Of a DNA stretch of 33,420 nucleotides, positions 1,813-25,662 are shown in pieces. The notes under the pieces are model-generated. The model made no database searches, was not told where the DNA came from, and was given only the letters and a program-made list of their open reading frames with translations. This DNA is from Anaerotruncus sp. (GTDB lineage: Bacteria; Bacillota; Clostridia; Oscillospirales; Ruminococcaceae), in assembly GCA_021770005.1 (NCBI GenBank), contig JAETRV010000029.1, forward strand, positions 1 to 33,420, in the 5' to 3' direction. The position numbers were made by a program, and so were the translations under genes. Every line of letters starts with the position of its first letter. Position 1 is the first letter of the stretch.

Positions 1813-3453
1813 TCAGGCGAGGGCCTTTTTCAGACGCTCGGCGACCTTCTCCTTGCCGAGAATCCCCATCACCTCATACATATCCGGCGAGTTCTGGCGC
1901 CCGGTAACCGCAACCCGGATCACCATGCTCACATCCCCCACATTCCCGCGGAATGCTTCGGGATTCTTTTTATAGTCCTTCATGTTGGATGCGTACCCGA
2001 TCTCATCAGCCAGCGCCTTGATCCGGTCGAACCACTGGGCATTGTCGTCCGCCGGATCGTATAGATCGAGATACCGCGTCAGGATGGTCTGTTTGTCCGC
2101 TTCGGTCACATTTTCCGGATAGCTGTAATCCGGCTGGAACAGCTCGTCAAAGAAGAAATCCATATACGGCTTTGCGTCCGACCAGGTTGCTAGGTCCTTG
2201 CGCGGCTTTTTGCCGCCCCGCCCAATCGCCAGAATCGACCGGGTGTACGCCGGATCGCGGGTCAGCAGTTTGTGGAACTCCGGGTCAAACTGCTCCGCCC
2301 AGCTGGTCAGATGGCTGTAAACCTGGTCCACACTCATCCGCGAGATCACGTTCTTAGAAACGTCGTTCAACTTGTCAATGTCGAACAGCGAACCGGACGC
2401 GCTCATCTTCTGGGTGGTGAATTTGAATTCGTTCAGATCAGCGGTCGGGTTGGCGAGCCGCCAGTCCTCGAAGTTGGAGTTGAGCAGCGTCATGATATAT
2501 TCTTTCACCGCCGGTACACAGTACCCGGTCTGCTTGTAGAAATCGAGCGCCAGTTCCGGGTCTTTCCGCTTGGACAGCTTGCGCTTGGAACCGCCATCCA
2601 TCTTCATAAGCTGGGAGGTGTGCACATATTTCGGCAGTTTCCAGCCCATCGCCTGGAACAGCTGCACATGGAACGGCAGCGTGGCCAGCCATTCCTCGCC
2701 GCGCACCACATGGGTCGTCTGCATCAGATGGTCATCCACCACATGTGCAAAATGATAGGTCGGGATGCCGTCCGATTTCAGCAGCACCAAGTCCTGCTCA
2801 TTCTCAGGGAACTCGACCGTCCCTTTGACGAGGTCGTTGACCTTCATCCGCTTTTCGGGATTCCCCTCGCTGCGGAACCGCAGGACAAACCGCTCGCCCG
2901 CGTCGATCTTCTCCTTGATCTGTTCAAACGAGGCGTCCCGATAGACCGCATATTTCCCGTAGTAACCGATATTCTCTTTTAACGCGGTCTGCTTTTCGCG
3001 GATCGCATTCAGCTCCTCCTCCGAGCAGAAGCAAGGATAGGCTTTTCCCTGCTGGACCAGCCATTTGGCGAACGTCTGGTAGATTTCCGCGCGCTGGCGC
3101 TGGTAGTAGGGGCCGTAAGCGCCGGATTCCCCGTCCGCAGTCGCGCCCTCGTCGAACCCCAGCTCATACTCGTGGAACACCCGTATGATCGTCTGGACGC
3201 CGCCCTCAACCGAGCGCTTCAGATCGGTGTCCTCGATCCGCAGACAGAGTACGCCGTTGCTCTGGTGGGCAAGACGCTCGTCCACGATTGCGCTGAACAG
3301 GTTGCCCAGGTGCATAAAGCCGGTCGGGCTGGGCGCCATACGGGTGACCTTCGCCCCCTCGGGCAGATTGCGCGGCGGGTATTTCGCCTCAATCTCAGCG
3401 GGCGTGGTCTGAATCTGCGGAAACAGCAGTTCCGCCAATGCGTTGTAATCCAT
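1813..3453 (-). CDS. gltX: Glutamyl-tRNA synthetase
   Basis: Class I synthetase attaching glutamate to tRNA-Glu. The APSPTGFMHLGN segment (HIGH box, about residues 40-51), the FCSEEEL segment and KLSKRKDPELALDF (KMSKS box) identify the family. I place the start at 3453 (MDYNALAEL, 546 residues) because AAGGAG lies 9-10 bases upstream; a start at 3474 adds seven residues but has no ribosome binding site. The stop codon abuts repeat copy B. Upstream, on the same strand, lies a train of hairpins (3484-3639) that would form its leader if transcription starts beyond it. No T-box specifier or AGGGTGG antiterminator motif is seen. Because the organism also has GlnRS, this enzyme is expected to discriminate tRNA-Glu from tRNA-Gln, but that cannot be read from the sequence alone. 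Confidence 0.96.
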   Translation of the reverse strand: MDYNALAELLFPQIQTTPAEIEAKYPPRNLPEGAKVTRMAPSPTGFMHLGNLFSAIVDERLAHQSNGVLCLRIEDTDLKRSVEGGVQTIIRVFHEYELGFDEGATADGESGAYGPYYQRQRAEIYQTFAKWLVQQGKAYPCFCSEEELNAIREKQTALKENIGYYGKYAVYRDASFEQIKEKIDAGERFVLRFRSEGNPEKRMKVNDLVKGTVEFPENEQDLVLLKSDGIPTYHFAHVVDDHLMQTTHVVRGEEWLATLPFHVQLFQAMGWKLPKYVHTSQLMKMDGGSKRKLSKRKDPELALDFYKQTGYCVPAVKEYIMTLLNSNFEDWRLANPTADLNEFKFTTQKMSASGSLFDIDKLNDVSKNVISRMSVDQVYSHLTSWAEQFDPEFHKLLTRDPAYTRSILAIGRGGKKPRKDLATWSDAKPYMDFFFDELFQPDYSYPENVTEADKQTILTRYLDLYDPADDNAQWFDRIKALADEIGYASNMKDYKKNPEAFRGNVGDVSMVIRVAVTGRQNSPDMYEVMGILGKEKVAERLKKALA

Positions 3454-3483
3454 GGTACAGGACTCCTTTATCATTGAAGTACT

Positions 3484-3639
3484 TGAAAAGAATCATTTTG
3501 ATTCTTTTCAGGTTTGCGGCGGACTCGCCGCAGAAGGCCGCTATCAGCGGCCTTACTTCAGATTTCATAGTCATCAGGCACGCGAAGCGCGCTTGCGGGC
3601 TTTTGCCCGCCACTTGAAAACAAGTACTTGTTTTCAAAT
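3484..3639. repeat. Train of consecutive hairpins upstream of gltX
   Basis: Four clear inverted repeats follow each other: 3484-3510 (TGAAAAGAATC / GATTCTTTTCA), 3515-3532 (TGCGGCG / CGCCGCA), 3534-3554 (AAGGCCGC / GCGGCCTT) and 3595-3610 (GCGGGC / GCCCGC). A 28-bp near-perfect palindrome at 3612-3639 (ACTTGAAAACAAGT and its complement, one mismatch) ends the train. None has a clear U-tract, so they do not look like simple terminators. On the minus strand they would lie in the gltX leader or in the 3' region of the small gene at 3712-3837. Confidence 0.7.
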
Positions 3640-3653
3640 GTTTTGACTATATC

Positions 3654-3682
3654 TTGACAGTTTTCAGCCGATTTGCTACAAT
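3654..3682 (+). promoter_or_regulatory. Sigma-A promoter for antisense RNA
   Basis: TTGACA (perfect -35) at 3654-3659, a 17-bp spacer, and TACAAT at 3677-3682. The expected start is near 3689. No convincing coding gene follows in this direction, but a short RNA with an intrinsic terminator does (3689-3786), running antisense to the small ORF at 3712-3837. Confidence 0.85.
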
Positions 3683-3688
3683 AGGAGA

Positions 3689-3786
3689 GGACACAGGGGC
3701 TTGATGCGCGATCAGTCTTTGTGTATGGTAATGATTACGATGGAATTAGAAGCGATGACGGTGATCCCGTCGTTGCTTCTTTTTCT
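3689..3786 (+). ncRNA. Candidate antisense (antitoxin) RNA, about 98 nt
   Basis: The RNA is bounded by the perfect promoter at 3654-3682 and the terminator at 3749-3786. It is complementary to the last 25 codons or so of the ORF on the other strand (3712-3837) and to about 23 bases beyond its stop. Its predicted 5' end (GAGGACACAGGGG, 3687-3699) nearly repeats the predicted 5' end of the opposing mRNA (GAGGAACACAGGGG on the minus strand, 3914-3901). A 31-codon frame starting at 3704 exists inside it, but its stop codon lies beyond the terminator and its best ribosome binding site lies upstream of or at the transcription start, so translation is unlikely. Known type I antitoxins have this size and layout; no homologous family was recognised. 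Confidence 0.65.
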
Positions 3787-3837
3787 ATGTAACCGCTGAT
3801 AAAACCAGTTCACGAGGGCTGACCAGACGTCCCGCAT
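3712..3837 (-). CDS. Small ORF, candidate type I toxin (41 aa)
   Basis: A 41-residue peptide starting MRDVWSALVNWFYQRLHRKR, with an aromatic amphipathic N-terminal stretch, a basic middle and a short beta-branched hydrophobic C-terminus (GITVIASNSIVIITIHKD). The start has a perfect AGGAGG seven bases upstream (plus coordinates 3845-3850) and a sigma-A promoter at 3922-3950. The AGGAGG is paired in a 5' hairpin (3843-3879), and the 3' half of the gene is covered by an antisense RNA. This combination is typical of type I toxin-antitoxin loci. The peptide is not a classical single transmembrane helix like Fst, TxpA or BsrG, and I do not recognise its family, so the toxin role is inferred from locus architecture only. 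A longer frame reaching 4002 has no ribosome binding site. Confidence 0.6.
   Translation of the reverse strand: MRDVWSALVNWFYQRLHRKRSNDGITVIASNSIVIITIHKD
3749..3786 (+). terminator. Intrinsic terminator of the antisense RNA
   Basis: A 12-bp stem (GAAGCGATGACG / CGTCGTTGCTTC with two G-U pairs) and a 7-nt loop, followed directly by TTTTTCT at 3780-3786 on the plus strand. On the minus strand the stem is not followed by a T-run, so it would stop only the plus-strand RNA. It lies inside the opposing ORF. Confidence 0.8.
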
Positions 3838-3842
3838 GTAAC

Positions 3843-3879
3843 CACCTCCTCGCGCGACATTTTGTGTGTCGGGGAGGTG
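3843..3879 (-). promoter_or_regulatory. 5' hairpin sequestering the Shine-Dalgarno
   Basis: On the minus-strand mRNA, CACCTCC pairs with GGAGGTG (7 bp, 3873-3879 with 3843-3849) and CGACA pairs with TGTCG (5 bp), with a one-against-five internal loop and a 7-nt apical loop. Five of the six AGGAGG bases of the downstream ribosome binding site are inside the stem. Such anti-SD hairpins are usual in type I toxin mRNAs. Confidence 0.75.
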
Positions 3880-3921
3880 CATACACCAAAGACTTCCAAA
3901 CCCCTGTGTTCCTCTTGGCAT

Positions 3922-3950
3922 ATCATACCACAGCGCGGGCCGTTTTACAA
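3922..3950 (-). promoter_or_regulatory. Sigma-A promoter for the small ORF
   Basis: On the minus strand, TTGTAA (3950-3945), a 17-bp spacer and TATGAT (3927-3922). The expected start is at 3915 or 3916, giving a leader of about 78 nt that begins AGAGGAACACAGGGG. Confidence 0.75.
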
Positions 3951-3975
3951 TAAAAACCTGTCTCCACAAACCTGA

Positions 3976-4031
3976 AACCAAAAGTTTCGTCCACCTTTTC
4001 AAAGGTGGCGGGGTCGAGGGGCAGCGCCCCC
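3976..4031 (+). repeat. Intergenic modular repeat, copy C
   Basis: AACCAAAAGTTTC box, stem GTCCACC/GGTGGC around TTTTCAAA, then the GGGGTCGAGGGGCAGCGCCCC hairpin. The stem differs from the GCCCGCC/GGCGGC version in copies B and E by a change matched on both sides. The element overlaps the 3' end of ruvX and encodes its last residues and stop codon. Confidence 0.8.
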
Positions 4032-4460
4032 GTCGATGGTTTCCGGGTGGTTTTTGCGATAGTTGAGGTAACTTTCGAGTATGATCGTTGCCGCCACCGC
4101 ATCGACCACCTCTTTGCGTTTTTTGCCGCGGGTATCGGTTTCGTTGAGGTAGCCGATCGCCGAAACAGTAGTGCCGCGCTCGTCCCAGAGCCGCACCGGA
4201 ACCGAGACCTTTTCAGAAAGCGCCTTTGCGAACGCTTCACACAGCTTGGCGCGCGGCCCCGCCGAGCCGTTCATATTGAGCGGATGCCCGACCACGATCT
4301 CCCCGGCCTCATATTCGGCCGCCGCGTACGCGACCTGCTGCACCACATTTTCAAATTTCCGTTCCTGAATGACCCCAATCGGGGAAGCGAGGAACTCGGT
4401 GCGGTCACAACAGGCAAGCCCGGTGCGCGCATCGCCAAAATCAACTGCCAGAATCTTCAT
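3999..4460 (-). CDS. ruvX: RuvX/YqgF-family Holliday junction resolvase-like nuclease
   Basis: RNase H-like fold protein of the RuvX (YqgF) family, implicated in 16S rRNA 5'-end processing and possibly Holliday junction resolution. MKILAVDFGDARTGLA holds the first catalytic Asp, VVGHPLNMNGSAGPRA is the conserved middle motif, and WDERGTT with the later VDAVAA holds the remaining acidic site. At 153 residues it is slightly longer than the usual 135-145. The extra tail (about IDGGAAPRPRHL) is encoded by repeat copy C and is probably not functional. The ribosome binding site is a weak GGGGG five bases before ATG. It starts 31 bp after pyrD and is likely the last gene of the pyrK-pyrD-ruvX operon. 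Confidence 0.92.
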   Translation of the reverse strand: MKILAVDFGDARTGLACCDRTEFLASPIGVIQERKFENVVQQVAYAAAEYEAGEIVVGHPLNMNGSAGPRAKLCEAFAKALSEKVSVPVRLWDERGTTVSAIGYLNETDTRGKKRKEVVDAVAATIILESYLNYRKNHPETIDGGAAPRPRHL

Positions 4461-15214: not shown

Positions 15215-15295
15215 ATTCCGCCGCGTGCGCGCGGCGGCGGGGGCTCTGCCCCTCGACCCCGCGATTTTTTGAAAAAAATCGAGTAAAACTTTTGG
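15215..15295 (-). repeat. Intergenic modular repeat, copy D
   Basis: Nearly identical to copy A: GC stem, GGGGGCTCTGCCCC hairpin, stem CGATTTTTT/AAAAAATCG and the AAAACTTTTGG box. It sits between the BMP gene terminator and the ATPase gene, inside the transporter operon. Confidence 0.85.
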
Positions 15296-16711: not shown

Positions 16712-16882
16712 AACCAAAAGTTTCGCCCGCCTTTTCAAAGGCGGCAGGGTCGAGGGGCGGAGCCCCCGCCGCCGCGCGCACGCGGCGGAATACTTTATCC
16801 TGAGAAGCGCATTTTTGGGTGAATTGGCTCTGACCACAGGTCAAAGCCAAGAGGGGCTTTTTGCAAGAGAAAAAGCCCCTTT
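16712..16882 (+). repeat. Intergenic modular repeat, copy E (full length)
   Basis: Full element: AACCAAAAGTTTC, stem GCCCGCC/GGCGGC, GGGTCGAGGGGC/GCCCC hairpin, GC stem, a conserved stretch (ACTTTATCCTGAGAAGCGCATTTTTGGGTGAATT in two parts), a second variable stem at 16824-16850 (TTGGCT.TGACC/GGTCA.AGCCAA) and a terminator-like hairpin at 16852-16880 (AGGGGCTTTTT/AAAAAGCCCCT). That last hairpin directly follows the xpt stop on the minus strand and probably ends the xpt transcript. Confidence 0.85.
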
Positions 16883-20693: not shown

Positions 20694-20992
20694 CGAGGGG
20701 CTTTTTCTCTTGCAAAAAGCCCCTCTTGCCGCTTCGCGGCAATTCACCCGACTGCCGCCGTACTGCGAGCCGCAGCGAGCGTTTCGGAGCGCAACCGCTG
20801 AAAGCGGCTCTTGGCGCGAAGATCGGCGTGCATAGGCCAACCGACGCGAAGCGTCGGCTCTTAGGCCGGAGTAAAATGCGCTTCTCAGGCGGGCGCCCGG
20901 CGCCCAAGAGGGGTTCCGCCGCGTGCGCGCGGCGGCGGGGGCTCTGCCCCTCGACCCCGCCGCCTTTGAAAAGGCGGGCGAAACTTTTGGTT
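20694..20992 (-). repeat. Intergenic modular repeat, copy F with nested insertion
   Basis: Fills the rimP-nusA gap. Reading plus: hairpin GAGGGGCTTTTT/AAAAAGCCCCTC (20695-20725), variable stem TTGCCGC/GCGGCAA (20726-20742), AATTCACCC, then an inserted block of about 120 bp (20750-20872) made of mini-palindromes such as CCGACGCGAAGCGTCGG. After that come the conserved AAAATGCGCTTCTCAGG, a GGGCGCCCGGCGCCC palindrome, the GC stem, the GCCCC/GGGGC hairpin, stem GCCGCCTTT/AAAAGGCGGGC and the AACTTTTGGTT end. Copies E and G lack the insertion. No gene is seen in 20684-21045. Confidence 0.85.
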
Positions 20993-21045
20993 AAGATCTA
21001 AGATTAAGATAAATTGTGTGAGAATGATTGGGAGGGGTCTGGAAA

Positions 21046-22826: not shown

Positions 22827-25475
22827 ATGATAGAAAAATACAGGGTTCATGAGGTCGCGAAGGACCTCGGGGTACAGAGCAAAGAGGTACTCGACCTGCT
22901 CGCTGCCAACTTTGAAGGGGAGCGCAAGAGCATGACCGCGCTCGATGAAAAGGAGCTTTCGTTGGTGCTCCATCATTACACCAGCCAGAATCAGGTAGAA
23001 AATTTTGACGCATATTTTGCCGCAGGCGAAGCCAAAAAACAGGCCGCGAAACAGCAGGCGAAGGAGGCGCGCGCCGCCGCCCAGCAGCCCAAACCGCAGC
23101 CGCCAAAGGAGCCGCAGCAGGCGAAGGAGACACCCCAGCCGAAGCCCCAGCAGGGCGGGCAGCAGCGGCAGGACAACCGGCAGGGCGGCGGCCAGCAGCA
23201 GAACCAGAACCGCGGCGGCCAGCAGCGGCAGGATAACCGGCAGGGTGGCGGTCAGCGCCAGCAGGGCGGACAGCAGAACCAGAACCGCGACCGCCAGCAA
23301 CGGCCGGACAACCGGCAGGGTGGCCAGCAGAACCGCGGCGGCCAGCAGCGGCAGGGTCAGCAGCAGGGCGGTCAACGCCAGCAGGGAAACCAGCAGCAGA
23401 ACCGCAACAATCAGCCGCAGCGGCAGGGCGGACAGCCCCAGGGCCAGCAGGCAGCGGCGCCCCAGCAGCAGAAGCCGCGCCAGCGTCCGCAGGGCGGCAT
23501 GACGGTCGATACCCGGGCAGGCTCGACCCAGGTCGAGATGGAGAAGTACAACGAGAAGTATGACAATCTCGCTCAGAGCAAGCTGGGCAACCGCGACACC
23601 GCGGCCCAGAAACAAAAGCTGACCCAGCGCAGCGCACAGCGGCGGGCAGGCAAACCGGCGATGTCCCGCAAGGAGAAGGAGGACGCGAAGATGCGCCGCC
23701 TCGAGCTCGAGCGGCAGCGCCGGAAAAACCTCTCAATCACCATCCCGGAGGAGATTACGGTCGGAGAGCTTGCGGCGCGGCTGCACGTCACCTCGGCGGA
23801 GATCATCAAACGGCTGATGGGGCTGGGCGTGATGGCAACGGTCAACGAAACCCTCGATTTCGACACCGCTTCGATGGTCTCGATCGAGATCGGCGCGAAG
23901 GTCGAGAAGGAAGTCGTGGTCACGATCGAGGACCGGCTGTTTGAGGTCGAGGAGGACGACGACGACAAGATGGTCGAGCGTCCGCCGATCGTCGTGGTCA
24001 TGGGCCACGTCGACCACGGCAAAACCTCCCTGCTCGACGCGATCCGCAATGCCAACGTCACTGCCGGCGAGGCGGGCGGCATCACCCAGCACATCGGCGC
24101 TTATCAGGTCCTGGTCAACGACCGCCCGGTCACCTTCCTCGACACCCCCGGCCATGCGGCGTTCACCGCCATGCGCGCCCGCGGCGCACAGGTCACCGAC
24201 ATTGCGGTCATCGTGGTCGCGGCGGATGACGGCATCATGCCCCAGACGGTCGAGGCCATCAACCACGCCAAAGCGGCAGGGGTCTCGATCATCGTTGCGG
24301 TCAACAAGATGGATAAACCCCACGCCAACCCTGATAAGGTCATGCAGGAGCTGACCGAGTACGAGCTGGTACCCGAGGAGTGGGGCGGCGACGTGCCCTG
24401 CATCAAGGTTTCGGCCAAGACAGGCGAGGGCATCCCCGACCTGCTCGAGATGATCCAGCTGGTCGCTGATACGAGCGAACTCAAAGCCAACCCCGACAAG
24501 ATGGCCAAGGGCACCGTGATCGAGGCGAAGTTGGACAAAGGCCGCGGCCCGGTCGCGACCATCCTGGTCCAGAGCGGGACCCTGCACACCGGCGACGTGG
24601 TGATCGCGGGAACCGCGATCGGCCGGGTGCGGGTCATGATGAACGACCGCGGCGAAAAGGTCTCCGAGGCCACCCCGGCAATGCCGGTCGAGATCACCGG
24701 CCTGGGGGACGTGCCCGAGGCGGGCGATGTATTCAATGCGGTTGAGGACGAGCGGCTCGCCAAAGAGCTGGTCGACCAGCGCAAATTTGAGAACAAACAG
24801 CAGCAGTTCAGCTCGTATGAGAAGGTCACCCTCGACAACCTGTTCAGCCATATCTCACAGGGCGACATGAAGGAACTGCCGATCATTGTCAAGGCCGACG
24901 TACAAGGCTCGGTCGAGGCGGTCAAACAGTCGCTCGAGAAGCTCTCGAACGACGAGGTCCGGGTCAAGGTGATCCATGGCGCGGTCGGCGCGGTCTCGGA
25001 GAGCGACGTCATGCTCGCCGATGCTTCCAACGCGATCATCGTCGGATTCAACGTCCGTCCCGACCCGATGGCCAAGGACAACGCCGAACGGGACGGGGTC
25101 GAACTGCGGCTCTATCGGATCATCTACGACGCAATCAACGATGTAGAGACCGCCATGAAGGGGATGCTTGCACCCAAGACCCGCGAGGTCGAGCTGGGAC
25201 GCGCCGAGATCCGGCAGGTCTACAAGATCACCAATGTGGGTACCGTCGCGGGCTGCTATGTGCTCGAGGGCCGGATTACCCGCAACGCCGAAATCCGCGT
25301 AGTGCGTGACGGCATCATCATCGCCGACGACCACCTCTCCAGCCTCAAACGGTTTAAGGACGACGTGAAAGAGGTCGCGAAAGGGTACGAGTGCGGCATG
25401 GGCCTCAATAAATTCAACGACCTCAAGGAAGGCGACATCTTCGAAGCGTATGAGATCGAGGAATACCGCGAATAA
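22827..25475 (+). CDS. infB: Translation initiation factor IF-2
   Basis: GTPase that places initiator tRNA on the 30S subunit and promotes subunit joining. The 882 residues comprise an IF2-N helical domain (about 1-55), a long low-complexity linker rich in Gln, Arg, Gly and Asn (about 70-225, with repeats such as [12 protein letters not shown]), a second N domain (about 305-370), the G domain from about 385 with [17 protein letters not shown] and NKMDKP, then domains II-IV. The start has AGGAGG ten bases upstream. The linker is encoded by CAG/CGG-rich DNA (about 23034-23502) and is probably prone to length change. A terminator-bearing repeat follows the stop. Confidence 0.97.
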
Positions 25476-25485
25476 TAAAGCATAG

Positions 25486-25662
25486 TGAAAAGTTTCGCCA
25501 GCCTTTCCAAAGGCTGCGGGGTCGAGGGGCAGCGCCCCTGCCGCCGCGCACACGCGGCGGAACACTTTATCCTGAGAGGCGCATTTTTGGGGGTGAATTT
25601 CCTCTGACCTTCGGTCAGAGGAAAGAGGGGGCTTTTGCAAGAAAAAAAGCCCCCTCTTTTCC
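25486..25662 (+). repeat. Intergenic modular repeat, copy G (full length)
   Basis: Same order of modules as copy E: GAAAAGTTTC, stem GCCAGCC/GGCTGC, GGGGTCGAGGGGC/GCCCC, GC stem, conserved ACTTTATCCTGAGAGGCGCA, variable stem TTTCCTCTGACC/GGTCAGAGGAAA (25598-25624, 12 bp perfect) and the terminator hairpin. It occupies the infB-rbfA gap. Confidence 0.85.
25623..25660 (+). terminator. Intrinsic terminator between infB and rbfA
   Basis: AAGAGGGGGCTTTT pairs with AAAAGCCCCCTCTT, followed by TT on the plus strand. It is the last module of repeat copy G and would reduce read-through from infB into rbfA. Confidence 0.7.

Follow-up and report, generated by a model that had tools for sequence, protein, structure and literature searches.

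Type I toxins have as their hallmark a hydrophobic product with a membrane segment and a charged C-terminus, as outlined in the passages of PMC6563280 that deal with such modules. In yonT/SR6 of Bacillus subtilis, the toxin open reading frame (ORF) lies on a polycistronic mRNA and a 100-nt antisense RNA lies over its 3' end (PMC5848175), and for txpA/ratA the corresponding passage of PMC4147584 gives mRNA degradation as the main action. Here we describe a locus of Anaerotruncus sp. in a 33,420-nt stretch of contig JAETRV010000029.1 (hereafter the window, meaning the whole stretch analysed), for which an original prediction had proposed a type I toxin-antitoxin-like system. The locus lies between ruvX and gltX. 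It is genuine, unusual and regulatory-looking, and it is present in two closely related species among the genomes searched. From its predicted elements, the most fitting description is that of an antisense RNA which lies in the gltX leader and opposes a small ORF. The sole convincing relative is Anaerotruncus sp. G3(2012) (record NZ_KE159679.1; hereafter G002), and the principal features are as follows.

3654-3682, plus strand: P+, TTGACA-17-TACAAT, predicted promoter of the antisense RNA (promoter scan; found again in G002)
3689-3790, plus strand: predicted antisense RNA of about 100 nt with two hairpins (start placed from P+, end from the terminator)
3691-3724, plus strand: predicted 5' hairpin of the antisense RNA (fold; compared with G002)
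3748-3788, plus strand: predicted intrinsic terminator of the antisense RNA (terminator scan; on the reverse strand, a hairpin without a T-run)
3712-3837, minus strand: 41-codon ORF with TGA, product MRDVWSALVNWFYQRLHRKRSNDGITVIASNSIVIITIHKD (ORF list and translation; start and stop absent in G002)
3845-3850, minus strand: Shine-Dalgarno AGGAGG of the ORF (read in the sequence)
3922-3950, minus strand: P-, TTGTAA-17-TATGAT, predicted promoter (promoter scan; found again in G002)

P+ is the window's top-scoring promoter-like site: it scores 11/12 and is the sole site of at least 11/12 on both strands of the 33,420 bases, where 0.1 such sites per strand would be expected under a Markov model. 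The original prediction had called it perfect, which is not quite so. P- scores 9/12 with TG ahead of its -10 hexamer; it is unremarkable alone, as 0.34 such sites are expected per strand in 571 nt, and it is the predicted promoter of the ORF leader and probably that of gltX-glnS. The terminator, described earlier as 12 bp long and inside the ORF, is present there with 14 pairs by the scan's count (hairpin 3748-3780, then a T-run), and terminator-like sites are not enriched locally (3 found against a shuffle mean of 2.2). P+, P- and the terminator were all found again in G002 by the same scan. The RNA running from P+ to the terminator folds at -45.6 kcal/mol (z -5.76 against 200 shuffles), and the minus-strand RNA across the locus folds 7.0 standard deviations under its shuffles. 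The antisense RNA has full complementarity to the ORF's 3' half and to the adjoining sequence beyond, and it ends inside the ORF. As claimed, the 41-codon ORF is accompanied by a consensus AGGAGG (3850-3845), and an antisense RNA facing a small ORF from opposed promoters, both kept in G002, is well supported at the sequence level.

The minus-strand gene order is pyrD, ruvX, the locus, gltX and glnS, all four genes exceeding the NCBIfam cut-offs. The terminator scan recognised no minus-strand terminator between the ORF and gltX, in either the window or G002; since gltX lies directly downstream on the same strand, the ORF belongs to the gltX-glnS leader. The position of gltX downstream and the missing terminator are points that the original prediction did not contain, as are two taken up below, the inverted repeat that gives both RNAs like 5' sequence and the hairpin over the AGGAGG. 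P+ itself points against gltX, from a position between the leader and that gene's ribosome-binding site. The two flanking genes are placed as follows.

1813-3453, minus strand: gltX, glutamate--tRNA ligase, downstream of the ORF on the same strand (NCBIfam)
3999-4460, minus strand: ruvX (yqgF), upstream gene (NCBIfam)

The reading to which we lean, tentatively and with somewhat less than even confidence, is that a small ORF in the gltX leader is controlled by the antisense RNA in the manner of a type I module, toxicity of the peptide being a candidate property only. Promoters, terminator, complementarity and RNA structure, the last also as retained in one relative, can be demonstrated in the predicted layout. 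From this layout we infer transcription, silencing and translation at the locus. Two facing RNAs would be made: the P- transcript would be a leader carrying the 41-codon ORF and running on into gltX-glnS, and from the stronger P+ would come the stable, two-hairpin antisense RNA described above. By pairing with the leader, this RNA would then most likely lower ORF expression through duplex cleavage, blocked elongation and convergent polymerase collision, which is the way in which type I modules act.

Three inverted-repeat parts of the leader bear on its folding.

3837-3885, minus strand: predicted local hairpin over the Shine-Dalgarno (inverted repeat I2 and folds)
3691-3703, no strand assigned: outer inverted repeat arm 1, which in the minus RNA can pair with the 5' end
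3897-3909, no strand assigned: outer inverted repeat arm 2 (repeat search)

Through the outer repeat, the plus and minus RNAs have like 5' sequences (ungapped match, P = 0.0017), and the 5' end of the minus RNA could pair with sequence beyond the ORF over 13 nt in the window and 14 nt in G002; all 14 pairs, G-U included, stand in both genomes, with three of them changed. When the plus RNA was modelled by covariance, the G002 minus strand gave a weak, full-length match (28 bits, E 0.006) and the window's minus strand one at the terminator hairpin only (22.9 bits, E 0.08); the locus is thus quasi-palindromic, and its two RNAs are alike. In all 11 folded versions of the leader, the Shine-Dalgarno is hidden in the local hairpin (0.11-0.17 unpaired). 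In a fold of the whole leader, the start codon is closed (0.02 unpaired), mainly by pairing within the ORF, and becomes partly open (0.34) when the leader below 3728 is omitted.

Comparison with G002 shows which parts have been kept. The two genomes are close: gltX is 98% identical over its first 176 residues and its DNA 92% identical over 500 codons, with 98 of the 119 differences at third positions. At the locus, identity reaches 34/35 in the P+ block (3650-3684), 38/40 in P- and 39/42 in the 5' part of the minus leader, as against 80/100 in the body of the plus RNA, i.e., the promoters are better conserved than the RNA body. Among the 38 pairs of the plus RNA, 26 are unchanged in G002, seven changed on one side still pair, three are broken and two gapped, and none has changed on both sides. 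A larger difference is found at the start of the ORF.

3826-3873, minus strand: 48-nt block absent in G002, holding the Shine-Dalgarno, the start codon and much of the hiding hairpin (alignment)

This block may have been gained in the window or lost in G002. The ORF of Anaerotruncus sp. G3 appears disabled, with the antisense RNA and promoters retained, and such a disabled ORF is plausible because the shared part of the frame changes somewhat like coding sequence. Across 37 shared codons there are 12 substitutions, distributed 4/1/7 over the codon positions, leaving 32 identical and 36 similar residues. When substitutions were placed at random (20,000 trials), the BLOSUM score was reached with P = 0.00025 and the similar, identical and third-position counts with P = 0.0019, 0.023 and 0.056 (seven third-position changes), respectively; with the position set shifted by one or two bases (four sets, 4,000 trials each), the BLOSUM score was never reached. 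Hence the minus frame is a better coding candidate than the plus frame, on evidence that is moderate, given that there are 12 changes and that an RNA structure occupies the same letters. The remnant of the 41-codon frame in G002 (L025) is also open and in frame with gltX, giving a 651-codon open frame, which is probably a coincidence.

The ORF has fewer than 60 codons and a ribosome-binding site in the window and is not intact in G002. The best 19-residue Kyte-Doolittle mean of the product is 1.02, and a single-sequence AlphaFold2 model places a helix at residues 2-21 and strands at 25-30 and 33-38, with a mean predicted local distance difference test (pLDDT) of 66.6, which is too weak for a fold search. 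No family model of described type I toxins or defence-system proteins matched the peptide. Some type I toxins are not membrane proteins, hence a missing membrane segment is not fatal to a toxin role.

The following results weigh against the type I-like reading. The hydrophobic-toxin feature fails, as neither hydropathy nor the low-confidence model predicts a membrane helix in the peptide, and searches of Pfam, NCBIfam, PHROGs and PADLOC gave no match at E up to 10, a limit within which most matches weaker than about E 0.1 are lost to the HMMER filters. The ORF start is not covered by the antisense RNA, and the ORF transcript has no recognised end before gltX. In the folds, the start codon stays closed without the outer 3' arm (0.03) or the 5' arm (0.01), and keeping the antisense target unpaired brings it to 0.34, against 0.02, with the Shine-Dalgarno unchanged at 0.17. 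The candidate arrangement in which 5'-3' pairing hides the start codon, as in aapA/IsoA, was thus not borne out in the 11 leader versions; with the start hidden by neither this pairing nor antisense binding in these folds, duplex cleavage, blocked elongation or polymerase collision would have to account for silencing. In G002, the ORF is without Shine-Dalgarno, start codon and stop, its frame reading through the window's stop position, and two of the nine pairs of the inner inverted repeat (I4) look broken by eye. The coding signal weakens to P = 0.039 when positions are fixed and only the new bases are random, the opposite plus frame reaches its substitution score in 6.2% of trials (P = 0.06), and the ORF frame is one of six possible. 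Finally, the locus was found in two genomes only, so conservation rests on a single comparison.

Searches in progressively wider sets of genomes delimit this distribution. By DNA search, two of 11 genus genomes have the element, in both cases between ruvX and gltX; the pattern of the P- side arm (at most 3 mismatches) occurs once in each of the two, and a covariance model built from the two plus RNAs likewise matched in 2/11. In seven other genus genomes with a readable ruvX end, the element is absent and the ruvX-gltX gap measures 34, 34, 48, 48, 61, 220 and 310 nt; G006, whose ruvX lies 1,327 nt off by another motif, is outside this count, and G010 gave no gltX match. A peptide search of 61 related genomes gave matches in nine, of which G000 and G002 were convincing and the other seven had E 0.23-0.79. 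The DNA search of 396 family genomes, scoring at most two candidates per genome, returned G000, G002 and matches of 29-31 nt in G036, which reads by eye as part of a protein gene, and in G348, which by eye has no such layout. The covariance model found G000 among 197 family genomes, and G068 at E 0.005; the latter was rejected, as it seems by eye to be coding sequence, its likeness is mostly to the terminator-like half, and such an E-value is what chance would give in 197 genomes. A two-sequence profile matched 39 of 394 order genomes at E <=0.1, the own genome included, which is the chance level; G002 was not among these matches and is evidently outside that sample. No homologue of the peptide was found by tblastn in phages and plasmids, and none of 108 stretches of viral contigs fitting the peptide pattern was confirmed. 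In genome contigs, the DNA pattern occurred at four loci, in Anaerotruncus sp. G3(2012), two Bacteroidota metagenome-assembled genomes (MAGs) and one Chloroflexota MAG, the last three as pattern matches only. A literature search found no convergent type I module with a long-range interaction and, for gltX antisense or leader control, only a review that is unrelated by its title.

Several repeats surround the locus. A palindrome-rich block of about 170 nt (3477-3650) lies between P+ and gltX in the window and is absent from G002, and short matches to parts of it occur at other places in the same genome. In G004 (L027) and G003 (L029), different palindromic sequence expands the interval between ruvX and gltX to 220 and 310 nt, so the gap seems to tolerate insertions. 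A 60-90 nt repeat resembling repetitive extragenic palindromic (REP) sequences occurs at 1-79, 3976-4035, 15217-15295, 16712-16790, 20914-20993 and 25471-25563, in both orientations, between genes or at gene ends; one copy overlaps the ruvX 3' end beside P-. Elsewhere in the window, a perfect 33-nt inverted repeat (16848-16880 / 20696-20728) has its arms 3.8 kb apart.

Other explanations have to be set against the type I-like reading. The main rival hypothesis, which we regard as an appreciable possibility short of a probable one, is that control by the antisense RNA and the structured leader is exerted on gltX-glnS itself, with firing of P+ lowering gltX through polymerase collision and duplex formation and the ORF being incidental or a minor leader peptide. 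It is consistent with gltX being the next gene with no terminator found between, and with the state of G002, which has no ORF start and keeps P+, the antisense RNA and the outer 5'-3' pairing; there, the -35 hexamer of P+ is about 20 nt from the gltX start codon (L010 1442 versus about 1421). A single function would account for both genomes, and gltX control explains better than the type I-like reading why G002 keeps the antisense RNA and promoters and not the ORF start and stop. On the other hand, the consensus AGGAGG with its good spacing and the coding-like substitutions would then be accidents, and five relatives with a gap of 34-61 nt have no such leader. Nor is there an Rfam family to support it: the whole window gave no match at gathering scores, thus none to a T-box or other known cis-regulatory leader, and the twelve matches in region 3440-4010 (E 0.31-9.1) were each under their gathering score. 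With one Gln codon and no Glu codon, the peptide is not a Glu/Gln attenuation peptide, and a Glu/Gln-rich leader peptide of that kind was ruled out by this composition. A third minus-strand promoter-like site in G002 (9/12, L010 1448-1421) was likewise rejected, as it ends at the gltX start codon and cannot serve gltX. An improbable extension joins both functions in one quasi-palindromic module of the gltX-glnS leader, with two convergent RNAs alike at their 5' ends, whose single strong antisense RNA would silence a non-membrane 41-aa peptide together with gltX-glnS via collision, coupling the peptide to translation capacity.

We consider it unlikely that the locus is an insertion without function, a quasi-palindrome that entered the ruvX-gltX gap, has ends resembling promoters and is now diverging by drift in two species. 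Its presence in 2/11 genus genomes between one gene pair, the full-length, weak fit of the G002 minus strand to the plus RNA model and the other palindromic blocks in the gap (3477-3650 in the window; G003 and G004) all suit such an origin. Against it, the promoters have changed less than the body of the RNA, and pairing survives most of the changes in the stems. The locus also does not look like a multi-copy miniature inverted-repeat transposable element or insertion element, for its own genome has one full copy and ten other matches of 15-22 nt, and no obvious target-site duplication is visible by eye. Far less probable still is that the plus RNA acts as a small messenger, encodes a hydrophobic peptide and is itself the toxin side. 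By eye, the frame that opens at ATG 3705 does look hydrophobic, and it is 22/27 identical in G002 over the shared part; its stop, as the original prediction had observed, comes only beyond the terminator, no clear Shine-Dalgarno is visible and no family matches. The late stop and the non-significant substitution score led us to rule out a peptide encoded by the plus RNA.

Returning to the type I-like reading, we find that the original claim of a type I system is partly supported, through its layout. The peptide has no membrane helix or family match, the transcript seems to run into gltX, G002 has neither ribosome-binding site nor start nor stop, and the wider searches gave no homologue. Of the checks it had proposed, conservation of the peptide frame came out well in the alignment with G002 (32/38 identical, 37/38 similar) and poorly in that the ORF is not intact there, and the searches recovered the element in two of the 11 genus genomes and no convincing copy elsewhere. 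Type I toxin-antitoxin identity is not shown, because the peptide has no predicted membrane segment, no end of the mRNA is recognised before gltX and any toxicity would be a candidate property only; we therefore suggest that the toxin label be dropped pending a test. Should the antisense RNA be real, it would mean that gltX-glnS has in these gut bacteria a further layer of regulation, one that matched no Rfam family. A toxic peptide, for its part, would make a type I-like toxin that has no predicted membrane helix and is encoded in a housekeeping operon and not on a mobile element. If neither is true, the locus exemplifies a well-formed promoter-terminator-ORF layout mimicking a toxin module.

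Compared with described systems, the locus shares features with several. Like aapA/IsoA of Helicobacter pylori, it would combine a cis-antisense RNA over a small ORF with an mRNA that may pair 5'-3' over a long distance and has a hairpin hiding the Shine-Dalgarno (PMC6733600); the key role that long-distance pairing has in that system was not reproduced, as 5'-3' pairing does not itself hide the start here in the folds made. The present locus is also single-copy, and its peptide is not a predicted membrane helix. The par system (Fst/RNA II) of plasmid pAD1 likewise has convergent RNAs with a common repeated sequence (PMC4147584). Its repeats are direct and allow RNA-RNA pairing (PMC4147584), whereas the repeat of the present locus is an inverted one, which gives the two RNAs similar 5' ends, and there is no Fst family match.

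In logic, the nearest systems are the convergent Gram-positive pairs: yonT/SR6, txpA/ratA, bsrG/SR4 and those of Clostridioides difficile. The CD2517.1-RCd8 and related pairs of C. difficile resemble the locus in having a small ORF and an antisense RNA that converge and overlap in a clostridial genome (PMC6563280), but their toxins are 50-53 aa long with an N-terminal membrane domain, which is absent here, and many of the modules lie in prophage regions rather than in a housekeeping operon leader (PMC6563280). In txpA/ratA and bsrG/SR4 of B. subtilis, too, the transcript of a small ORF converges and overlaps with that of an antisense RNA (PMC4147584). The predicted RNAs of the locus overlap, but no minus-strand terminator was recognised ahead of gltX, and in this the ORF transcript differs from both pairs. 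In txpA/ratA, moreover, the overlap is about 75 nt and spares the txpA coding region (PMC4147584), whereas the antisense RNA here ends inside the ORF. The 58-aa YonT is encoded in a prophage and the gene downstream of it is a second, weaker toxin, in place of which the present locus has gltX, and the peptide here has no family match. With yonT/SR6, the locus has in common an ORF that would lie on a longer transcript and an antisense RNA of about 100 nt over its 3' part (PMC5848175).
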